From: Bacteroidota bacterium
GTDB taxonomy: Bacteria > Bacteroidota > Bacteroidia > J057 > RFSG01
DNA length: 35,207 bases
Direction of reading: 5' to 3'
Assembly (NCBI GenBank): GCA_947459115.1
Contig: CANHCC010000006.1
Location: 1-35,207, forward strand
The position numbers and the translations under genes were made by a program. The notes beneath the pieces were generated by a model, which searched no databases, was not told where the DNA came from, and saw only the letters and a list, made by a program, of their open reading frames with translations. This document shows, piece after piece, positions 5,429 through 35,207 of the stretch. Each line of letters starts with the position of its first letter. The stretch's first letter is position 1.

Positions 5429-8400
5429 TTAGTATGCCAAATTTTGACCAAGCCATCTCTCCACTTCATCGACTGACATGCCTTTTCTGACAGCGTAATC
5501 TTCTACCTGATCTTTTGTGATTTTGCCCAGCCCGAAGTATTTGGAATCCGGGTGAGAGAAATACCAGCCGGAAACTGCTGCAGCAGGCCACATCGCCATA
5601 CTCTCCGTGAGGGTAATACCGGTGTTTTTTTCTGCATCCAACAAATTGAATAAGGTAATTTTTTCAGTGTGATCCGGGCAGGCAGGATATCCCGGCGCAG
5701 GTCGAATTCCCTGATATTTTTCCCGAATCAAATCTTCATTCTCCAGTGTTTCTGTGGCGGCATAGCCCCAGAATTCTCTTCTGACGCGTTCATGCATTCT
5801 CTCTGCCAGAGCTTCCGCAAGACGGTCAGCAATTGCTTTTGCCATGATGCTGTTGTAGTCATCGTGATCTGCTTCAAACTGCTGCACCAGTTTATCCAGT
5901 CCAATACCCGCTGTGACTGCAAAAGCCCCTATGTAGTCGTTTACACTCGTTGATTTAGGTGCGATGAAATCGCCGAGAGAAAGATTTACTACCCCACCCC
6001 CTTTTTGGCCTTGTTGTCTTAAATTATGTAGAGTGGCCAATGGTTTTTCCCGATGTTCTTCTCCTTTTTCATTGAATGCATACAGCGTAATGTCATCTTC
6101 ATGCTCCCGGTTGGCAGGATAAAATCCTATAACCGCTCTGGCTTCCACTAATTTTTCCTGTATAAAACGATTGAGCATGGCTTTCGCATCCTCAAATAGT
6201 TTTGAGGCTTCTTTTCCAACGATTGGGTCTTCCAGAATTTTCGGAAAACGACCCGCAAGTTCCCACGTCTGGAAAAATGGCGTCCAATCAATATAGTTCA
6301 CCAATTCCTCAAGCGGATATTGGTGGAAAGCTTTAACTCCCAGGAAGGTTGGCTTTTGTACCTTGGTGGCCTCCCAATTGATTTTCATTGGATTGTTTCT
6401 GGCATCCTGTATCGAGACATATTCTTTGTCACGACTTCGCCTTGCATGGTCCTGACGAAGTTGCTCATATTCGGCTTGTATGGCTTTAAAGAACTCGTCT
6501 TTTTGTTCAATGCTAATTAAACTTCCGGCTACAGGTACGCTTCTGGAGGCATCCAATACATGAACAACCGGTCCTGAATAATGGGGCGCAATTTTTACTG
6601 CCGTGTGAATCCTGGATGTGGTAGCGCCACCAATGAGCAAGGGGATTTTAAAACCCTGCCTTTCCATTTCCTTGGCCACAAATACCATTTCATCCAAAGA
6701 AGGGGTAATCAATCCACTCAGTCCGATGATATCTGCATTTATTTCTTTGGCACGATCCAGGATTTTTTGACAATGTACCATCACCCCCATGTCATCTACT
6801 TCATAATTATTGCATCCCAGAACCACACCCACAATGTTCTTCCCAATATCATGAACATCCCCCTTTACGGTTGCCATCAGGATTTTACCTGCAGAAGAAG
6901 AAGAAGCCGTGCCACTTGCTTTCTCTGCTTCCATAAAGGGCATCAGGTAGGCAACTGCTTTTTTCATCACCCTTGCACTTTTTACAACCTGAGGCAAAAA
7001 CATCTTTCCTTCTCCAAATAAATCTCCCACAATGTTCATCCCATCCATTAGGGGGCCTTCAATTACATGCAGAGGCTTAGGATATTGTTGTCTGGCTTCC
7101 TCGGTATCCTGGTCTATATATTCTACAATGCCTTTTACAAGGGCATGGGTTAGACGCTCTTTTACCGGCAGGGTTCTCCAGGTTTCATCCCTTTCCATTT
7201 CCTTGCCTTTGGATTTTACCGTCTCTGCATATTCTACCAGAATCTCAGTCGCATCCGGTCTTCTATTCAATAAAACATCTTCGACCTTCACCAGTAAATC
7301 GGCAGGGATATTCTCGTATACCTCTATCATACCGGCATTGACAATCCCCATATCCAAGCCTGCTTTGATGGCATGATACAGGAAGGCAGCGTGCATGGCC
7401 TCCCGTACGACATTGTTTCCCCTAAAGGAAAAGGAAATGTTACTGACGCCCCCGCTAACCAATGCGCCCGGTAAATTTTTCTTAATCCATCGGGTGGCCT
7501 CAATAAAATCTACTGCGTAATTGTTGTGCTCTTCTATTCCGGTTGCAACGGTTAGAATATTAGGGTCAAAAATGATGTCCTGAGGTTTAAAGCCAATTTC
7601 TTTTGTGAGGATGTTGTAAGCTCTTTCACATATGGCAATTCTTCTCTCATAGGTATCAGCTTGGCCTTGTTCATCAAAGGCCATTACGATAACGGCAAAT
7701 CCATACCGCCTGACCTTCCTGGCCTGCTCCTTAAATTTTTCCTCTCCTTCTTTGAGCGAGATGGAGTTCACAACGCCCTTGCCCTGAACACATTTCATAC
7801 CCGCTTCTATGACCTCCCATTTGGAAGAGTCAATCATGATAGGCAGTTTGGCGATATCGGGTTCGGAAGCTATCAGATTCAAGAAGGTATGCATGGCGTT
7901 AACAGAGTCCAGCATTCCTTCATCCATATTGACATCTATCATTTGGGCACCGCCTTCCACCTGGTTCAACGCAACGGAGAGTGCATCCTCGTATTTGTTT
8001 TCCAAAATCAATCTTGCAAAGGCTTTGGAACCTGTAACATTGGTGCGCTCCCCCACATTAACAAAATTGGCGCCTTTGAAAATGGTCAGAGGCTCCATTC
8101 CTGCAAACCGTGGCAAAGGTTCTGGTATAGATGGTATTCTGGGGGGATACTTGGATGCGAGCTTGGCCATCTCCCGAATGTGATCCGGCGTAGTTCCACA
8201 ACACCCCCCAATGATATTGATAAAGCCTTCTTTCAGAAAATCTTCGATCTCAGTGCCCATGGATTCAGGGCTCTCATCATAGCCTCCGAATGCATTCGGC
8301 AATCCCGCATTGGGATAAATACAGACAAAAAATTCGGAGATACGGGAAATCTCCTGAACATAAGGCCGAAGTTCTTTGGCGCCAAGGGCACAATTCAAGC

Positions 8401-9121
8401 CAACACTTAACAGAGGAATGTGAGAGATAGAATTATAAAATGCCTCTGTTGTCTGACCTGAAAGGGTTCGTCCCGAAGCATCCGTAATTGTACCGGATAC
8501 CATGATGGGCAAACGCTTCCCAATTTGTTCAAAGTAAGCATCTGCGGCATATAGAGCAGCCTTGCAATTGAGGGTGTCAAAAACCGTCTCAATGAGCAGG
8601 AGGTCTACGCCTCCATCCATTAATCCGCGAATTTGCTCTGTGTAGGCTTCAACCAGTTGATCAAAATAGATACCCCTAAAACCAGGGTTGTTGACATCCG
8701 GAGAAATAGAGGCGGTGCGATTGGTTGGACCTATAGAGCCGGCAACATACCTGGGTTTATCCGGATTAAGCAAAGTAAATTCCTGGGCGGCTTGTTTGGC
8801 AAGCTTGGCAGATTCAATATTTAATTCATATACCAGGTCTTCCATGTGGTAATCCGCCATGGCAATACTGGTGCAGGAAAATGTATTGGTTTCAATAATA
8901 TCCGCACCGGCATCTAAATATTCTTTGTGAATGGCATAGATTATGTCCGGACGCGTGAGTGATAATAAATCATTATTCCCTTTCAAATCGGCTGGGAAAG
9001 ATTTAAATCGTTCTCCCCGATAATCCTCATCCGTCAGATTGTAACGCTGAATCATGGTTCCCATAGCGCCGTCCAGTACCAGAATTCTTTTGCGCAGTTC
9101 CTGTTCTATTGTGTGATTCAT
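5429..9121 (-). CDS. metH: Cobalamin-dependent methionine synthase
   Basis: A 1230-residue full-length MetH, which moves a methyl group from methyltetrahydrofolate via cobalamin to homocysteine. All four modules are present: homocysteine-binding barrel (about 1-330, zinc cysteines in [15 protein letters not shown] at 307-308 and an earlier one in GLNCALGA), pterin-binding barrel ([16 protein letters not shown]), cobalamin cap and B12 domain with GDVHDIGKN (axial His about 757), and the reactivation domain with [12 protein letters not shown] near the C-terminus. I chose the ATG at 9121 ([21 protein letters not shown]) because it matches the usual family N-terminus; an open frame extends 31 codons further up, but that stretch lies inside the putative structured leader. 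Regulation through the leader is suggested by the sequence. Confidence 0.97.
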
Positions 9122-9149
9122 TAGAAATGGTATAAAGTAAGGATCTCTG

Positions 9150-9227
9150 TTTAACAAGTTATACTGGTATGGAGCCTGAAACAGGATTTGACTTCCTTCA
9201 GGGACAATACCCAATTACCTTGTTAAA
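9150..9227 (-). promoter_or_regulatory. Candidate structured 5' leader RNA of metH
   Basis: In the minus-strand RNA three helices are strictly nested: UUUAACAAG (9227-9219) with CUUGUUAAA (9158-9150), 9 bp; GGUAU (9211-9207) with AUACC (9170-9166), 5 bp; CCUGAA (9202-9197) with UUCAGG (9180-9175), 6 bp, continued by GGA/UCC around a 7-nt loop. The internal loops are symmetric, 7/7 and 4/4 nt. The element lies between the likely promoter (9255-9248) and the ATG (9121), in a leader of about 120 nt. It does not carry the conserved cores I know for SAM-I, SAM-II or cobalamin riboswitches. A regulatory role is inferred. Confidence 0.5.
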
Positions 9228-9247
9228 TACAGATAAATCTAAGACAA

Positions 9248-9273
9248 CAAAATTACGAATAAGGATAGACCAA
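9248..9273 (-). promoter_or_regulatory. Likely promoter of metH
   Basis: TAATTTTG at 9255-9248 on the minus strand matches the -7 box, with TTG at 9273-9271 after a slightly short 15-nt spacer. Transcription would start near 9242 and give a leader of about 120 nt, far longer than the other leaders suggested in this window. Confidence 0.5.
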
Positions 9274-18220: not shown

Positions 18221-18303
18221 GGCAAATTACTTAACTCCAGTAAGTTACTTATGCTTGTTACTCTCGGTAAGTTACTTACCCCCACTCCGGTAAGTTACTT
18301 ACC
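18221..18303. repeat. Cluster of four 15-bp palindromes GGTAAGTTACTTACC
   Basis: Two perfect copies (18266-18280 and 18289-18303) and two diverged copies (18239-18253 and 18221-18235) lie in tandem directly behind the SNF2 stop codon. The spacers share CTCC before each copy, so the unit is about 23 bp. Each copy is a dyad of 7-bp arms with a single central base, suited to a dimeric DNA-binding protein rather than to an RNA hairpin. Confidence 0.8.
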
Positions 18304-34880: not shown

Positions 34881-35207
34881 TTGAATGTAGAGACGCAATA
34901 TTTTGCGTCTCGGGAGATGCATGCATGTTTGGTTGTAGAGACGCAATATTTTGCGTCTCGGAAGGACGCATGCATGTTTGAATGTATAGACGCAATATTT
35001 TGCGTCTCTACAGAAGGCACATGCATGTTTGAATGTATAGACGCAATATTTTGCATCTCGGAAGGACGCATGCATGTTTGAATGTAGAGACGCAATATTT
35101 TGCGTCTCTACGGAAGACGCATGCATGTTTGGTTGTAGAGACGCAATATTTTGCGTCTCGGAAGACGCATGCATGTTTGAATGTAGAGACGCAATATTTT
35201 GCGTCTC
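34881..35207. repeat. Minisatellite of at least seven palindrome-bearing units, cut by window edge
   Basis: A 22-bp dyad (arms GAGACGCAA and TTGCGTCTC around TATT) is present at 34890-34911, 34938-34959, 34987-35008, 35038-35059, 35087-35108, 35138-35159 and 35186-35207. Periods are 48, 49, 51, 49, 51 and 48 bp. The spacers are near-identical (GACGCATGCATGTTTGAATG-type, with a TGCATGCA palindrome), so this is not CRISPR. Copies 3 and 4 have a T at the first position and copy 4 has GCATCTC. Two of the spacers begin with TAC, completing a GTAGAGACG/CGTCTCTAC dyad. The array continues beyond the window. Confidence 0.93.

Follow-up and report, generated by a model that had tools for sequence, protein, structure and literature searches.

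The metH leader and its predicted hairpin

The window, i.e. the whole stretch of 35,207 nucleotides from a Bacteroidota genome analysed here, encodes on its minus strand the cobalamin-dependent methionine synthase metH (5429-9121), the open reading frame of which starts with an ATG at 9121, a position fitting the N-termini of related MetH proteins. We rejected an N-terminal extension of MetH to an in-frame TTG at 9214: the frame is open that far, but MetH homology begins close to the ATG. thiO and metH are separated by 200 nt, a gap that contains the palindrome described below and a single full match to TAnnTTTG, the Bacteroidota-type -7 box TAATTTTG (9248-9255, minus strand), representing the putative metH promoter. 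As an earlier sequence-only reading had proposed, the fold discussed here has a consensus -7 box on one side and metH on the other.

The distance from the -7 box to the metH ATG is 126 nt, making a leader of about 120 nt starting from this box plausible as judged from the sequence. The same reading had regarded such a leader as standing out among short ones. That other leaders are mostly short holds as a tendency, -7 boxes being enriched at no more than 60 nt from start codons in this genome. For the long metH leader itself, the consensus box is present, but boxes at such a distance are no more common than background: their rate at 110-129 nt is 0.16-0.20 per 100 nt compared to 0.20-0.32 on the opposite strand, showing no excess, and 126 nt falls within the background range of box distances. 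A TTG is present 15 nt upstream of the -7 box, and no TTG spacing before -7 boxes is clearly enriched in the genome; in Flavobacterium johnsoniae leaders average 33 nt in length, with a weak -33 element (PMC6847099). Closer to metH, at 10-11 nt from the ATG, a weak box-like sequence, TACTTTAT, scores -0.5 versus 13.5 for the distal box, and a scan of the leader for sigma-70-type promoters returned none.

On the minus strand, positions 9150-9227 are predicted to form a core hairpin in which helices of 9, 5 and 5-6 plus 3-4 bp lie one inside the other, with symmetric 7/7 and 4/4 loops. The outer 9-bp helix (UUUAACAAG/CUUGUUAAA) pairs 9219-9227 with 9150-9158, the middle 5-bp helix (GGUAU/AUACC) pairs 9207-9211 with 9166-9170, and the inner helix consists of 5 bp (CCUGA/UCAGG, 9198-9202 with 9175-9179) and 4 bp (AGGA/UCCU, 9194-9197 with 9183-9186) separated by a 3-nt bulge, equivalent to the 6 + 3 bp described earlier. 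The 7/7 loop lies between the 9-bp and the 5-bp helix and the 4/4 loop inside the 5-bp helix, containing one extra G-C pair. Folding and a pair-by-pair check thus reproduced the three helices, nested as described, and the two symmetric loops at the positions originally assigned to them, and added the outer helices UCUGU/ACAGA and GAUU/GAUC, which had been missed and which extend the predicted leader hairpin to 9142-9239 (minus strand). The putative leader (9122-9242) has a minimum free energy of -30.6 kcal/mol and a z-score of -3.40 with none of 200 shuffles reaching this stability; repeat runs with 100-150 shuffles gave -3.1 and -2.8, and the stretch first singled out, taken alone, reaches -2.5 against shuffles.

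In the minimum-energy fold, the first half of the region between hairpin and ATG (9122-9141, minus strand) is predicted to be unpaired while its last bases pair with the coding start, and the hairpin leaves the start codon unmasked. A terminator scan identified neither a terminator nor a terminator-like tail after the hairpin, so that the two features that could serve as an expression platform, a terminator or a masked start, are both missing from this fold.

A single-copy imperfect palindrome in a repeat-rich genome

At the DNA level, the region forms a 92-bp inverted repeat, imperfect but ungapped (9143-9234, both strands), with 38-nt arms at 9143-9180 and 9197-9234. The arms show 28 Watson-Crick matches over 38 positions plus one G-U, meaning that only one of the ten mismatched arm positions is a G-U in the transcript. 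The opposite strand folds about equally well (-31.3 kcal/mol, z -2.90), and therefore nothing marks the fold as selected at the RNA level. Neither sequence nor covariance-model searches found a second copy of the palindrome in the genome, its paired arms occurring once.

Scoring inverted repeats as matches minus mismatches, the metH palindrome reaches 18, a value found at two places in 8.3 Mb of shuffled sequence. This corresponds to about 0.7 inverted repeats of this strength expected by chance per 2.86-Mb genome and about 0.01 per 35-kb window, making the strength of the palindrome unusual for one window. A nested-symmetric descriptor, chosen post hoc and fitted after the case had been seen, matched twice in 829 kb of the genome, i.e. 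at metH and in one palindromic repeat array, and not at all in 4.1 Mb of Markov shuffles. By folding z-score the metH leader ranks 14th among the 207 leaders of at least 121 nt in the 829-kb sample; by inspection, several of those ranked above it resemble terminators of upstream genes or palindromic repeat arrays. Elsewhere in the genome, in what is likely the rimP-nusA leader as judged from the sequence (L226:4540-4605, G000 contig C32), a -7 box precedes a strong hairpin that has GGGGAGUGAUAAACUCCCC at its tip (z -4.6).

The genome is crowded with palindromic intergenic repeats. The 15-bp palindrome GGTAAGTWACTTACC, e.g. at 18266-18303, is present at 231 sites in the window's genome (G000), often arrayed at a spacing of about 22-26 bp, and has no occurrence in 21 other genomes of the order. 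The palindrome GCTTGGTGCAAGC, also arrayed, occurs 97 times in 20 of the 41 stretches forming the 829-kb sample (L196-L235 and the window). At 34889-35158, long palindromic repeats built around GAGACGCAATATTTTGCGTCTC form an array; this sequence has five exact matches in the window and is absent elsewhere in the 829-kb sample. Long near-perfect palindromes at L202:9411-9462 and L218:11503-11564 share the core CCCTGCTGCAAGGTA but differ in their outer arms, which are themselves inverted repeats. The metH feature is palindromic as are the GGTAAGTWACTTACC and GCTTGGTGCAAGC repeats, which by inspection are mostly intergenic; these repeats, however, are short, perfect, multi-copy and arrayed, whereas the metH palindrome is long, imperfect and single-copy. 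None of the genome's repeat families matches its sequence, lending no support to an origin by decay from one of them.

Relatives of the leader and SAM-I riboswitches at metH

No sequence match to the leader was detected in 79 other class-level genomes, members of the order included; matches in the 22 genomes of the order were short and at chance level (E of 0.016 or worse), and viral contigs yielded no relatives or chance-level ones. A covariance model built from the single sequence recovered only the leader itself and its own reverse strand and nothing in 394 other genomes of the class, the genomes compared being no closer than order, a distance at which an RNA conserved within genus or family would be invisible. 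The nearest MetH among named genomes is 78% identical, too distant for leader alignment. By folding prediction, metH leaders across the order show no class-wide structure (mean z -1.0 compared to -0.6 for leaders of the window's genome), and no leader sequence shared at metH was seen in the order beyond three species of one genus. In these three (L239, L240 and L241 from G020, G011 and G019), an invariant 20-nt GAAAACCCGTAAGTTTTCAA hairpin is located just before metH, occurring once per genome in a leader that has otherwise diverged. This hairpin has no Rfam match, and we consider it a better candidate regulator than the 9150-9227 fold.

Searching the leader against Rfam gave no match at the gathering score and none at E values up to 10, in agreement with the earlier statement that no SAM-I, SAM-II or cobalamin core is seen in it; no known riboswitch thus matches. 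A degenerate SAM-I riboswitch in the leader was rejected on the same basis, no match being found at E up to 10. SAM-I (RF00162) is absent from the window and from the whole genome; a cobalamin riboswitch (RF00174) was not found in the window, and the only match of the genome lies on another contig, C255.

The situation differs in other Bacteroidia. A scan of 20 metH loci, almost all of them belonging to other orders of the class, found SAM-I at 17, and within about 310 nt of the metH start codon at 16; the SAM-I of L026 lies about 1.1 kb from the metH start, and L062, labelled Saprospiraceae, carries SAM-I at metH. Within the order of the window's genome, SAM-I precedes metH at none of 20 loci, and 10 of 22 genomes contain SAM-I somewhere. 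With SAM-I missing at these 20 loci and throughout the genome, a gap is left in the metabolic control of metH. The SAM-I (S-box) riboswitches of other Bacteroidia and the feature described here share the gene, metH, and a leader that is structured ahead of the start codon; SAM-I, however, forms a multi-helix junction whose core is conserved, whereas the metH palindrome is one long hairpin without an Rfam match.

Origin and possible role of the palindrome

Our data are best explained by a single-copy, diverged 92-bp imperfect palindrome private to this genome, forming a leader hairpin with a passive effect at most, a reading to which we assign a probability of about 0.62. It would probably be an ordinary, lineage-specific leader palindrome that most likely arose by inverted duplication or as a chance palindrome, followed by point substitutions; substitutions of this kind in a palindrome give rise to symmetric loops, which would explain the symmetry of the internal ones. 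Transcription from the box at 9248-9255 would result in a metH transcript carrying the hairpin, the effect of which may be limited to e.g. shielding the 5' end from nucleases. The gapless arms, the equal folding of both strands, the single G-U and the lack of relatives support this reading, as do the fold rank of 14 of 207, the palindromic repeat-rich genome and the expectation of about 0.7 such repeats by chance. Counting against it are the strength of the palindrome, unusual for one 35-kb window, the perfect -7 box just before it and the identity of the gene, which has a riboswitch leader in many relatives.

An alternative is that a lineage-specific cis-regulatory RNA, binding either a metabolite or a protein, took over from SAM-I at metH. 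In its favour, SAM-I precedes metH in 16 of 20 relatives, nearly all from other orders, versus none of 20 loci of the order and is found nowhere in the genome, which leaves a regulatory gap; the leader fold (z -3.4) also speaks for it, as does the invariant hairpin that a different genus of the order carries before metH. We nevertheless regard it as unlikely: the covariance model found no structural relative and hence no covariation can be counted, the fold is symmetric on both strands, a terminator is missing and the start codon stays free of the hairpin, and the metH leaders of the order are unstructured as a class. Still more doubtful is the specific version in which an RNA private to the family replaced a lost SAM-I and senses methionine, SAM, SAH, cobalamin or a protein via the 7/7 and 4/4 loops. 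The suggestion of the sequence-only reading that the fold is an undescribed cis-regulator is not supported by these results, no relative with the fold being found in the genomes searched, both strands folding equally, the start being unmasked and a terminator being absent.

Alternatively, the palindrome might act as a DNA operator bound by a dimeric regulator, with the metH promoter overlapping the proximal arm or lying downstream of it. An ungapped palindrome folding independently of the strand is consistent with this, as is the weak proximal box 10-11 nt before the ATG in a genome where most boxes are found at 0-60 nt from start codons. However, the proximal box scores far below the distal one, 60 nt separate the 9-bp arms, a long distance for one dimer, and the paired arms have no second copy in the genome, making an operator improbable.

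Integron attC sites end in the consensus RYYYAAC/GTTRRRY. The metH palindrome resembles them as an imperfect hairpin with R-box-like ends, its outer arms ATTTAAC...GTTAAAC fitting this consensus, and a central spacer unpaired in the fold, but a remnant of such a mobile or recombination element is very improbable, as the genome contains no integron integrase above the TIGR02249 cut-off, the feature is single-copy without array or cassettes, its neighbours are housekeeping genes and no target duplication is visible by eye. An intact integron system was rejected with the integrase search and the paired arms occurring once, and a transposon origin with the missing second copy and target duplication.

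On its own, the palindrome matters little, being one more lineage-specific leader palindrome. It is chiefly the gap in metH control within the order that keeps the RNA reading alive, and the main value of the metH palindrome is as a pointer to the absence of SAM-I, usual before metH in other Bacteroidia, from those metH leaders of the order that were examined.
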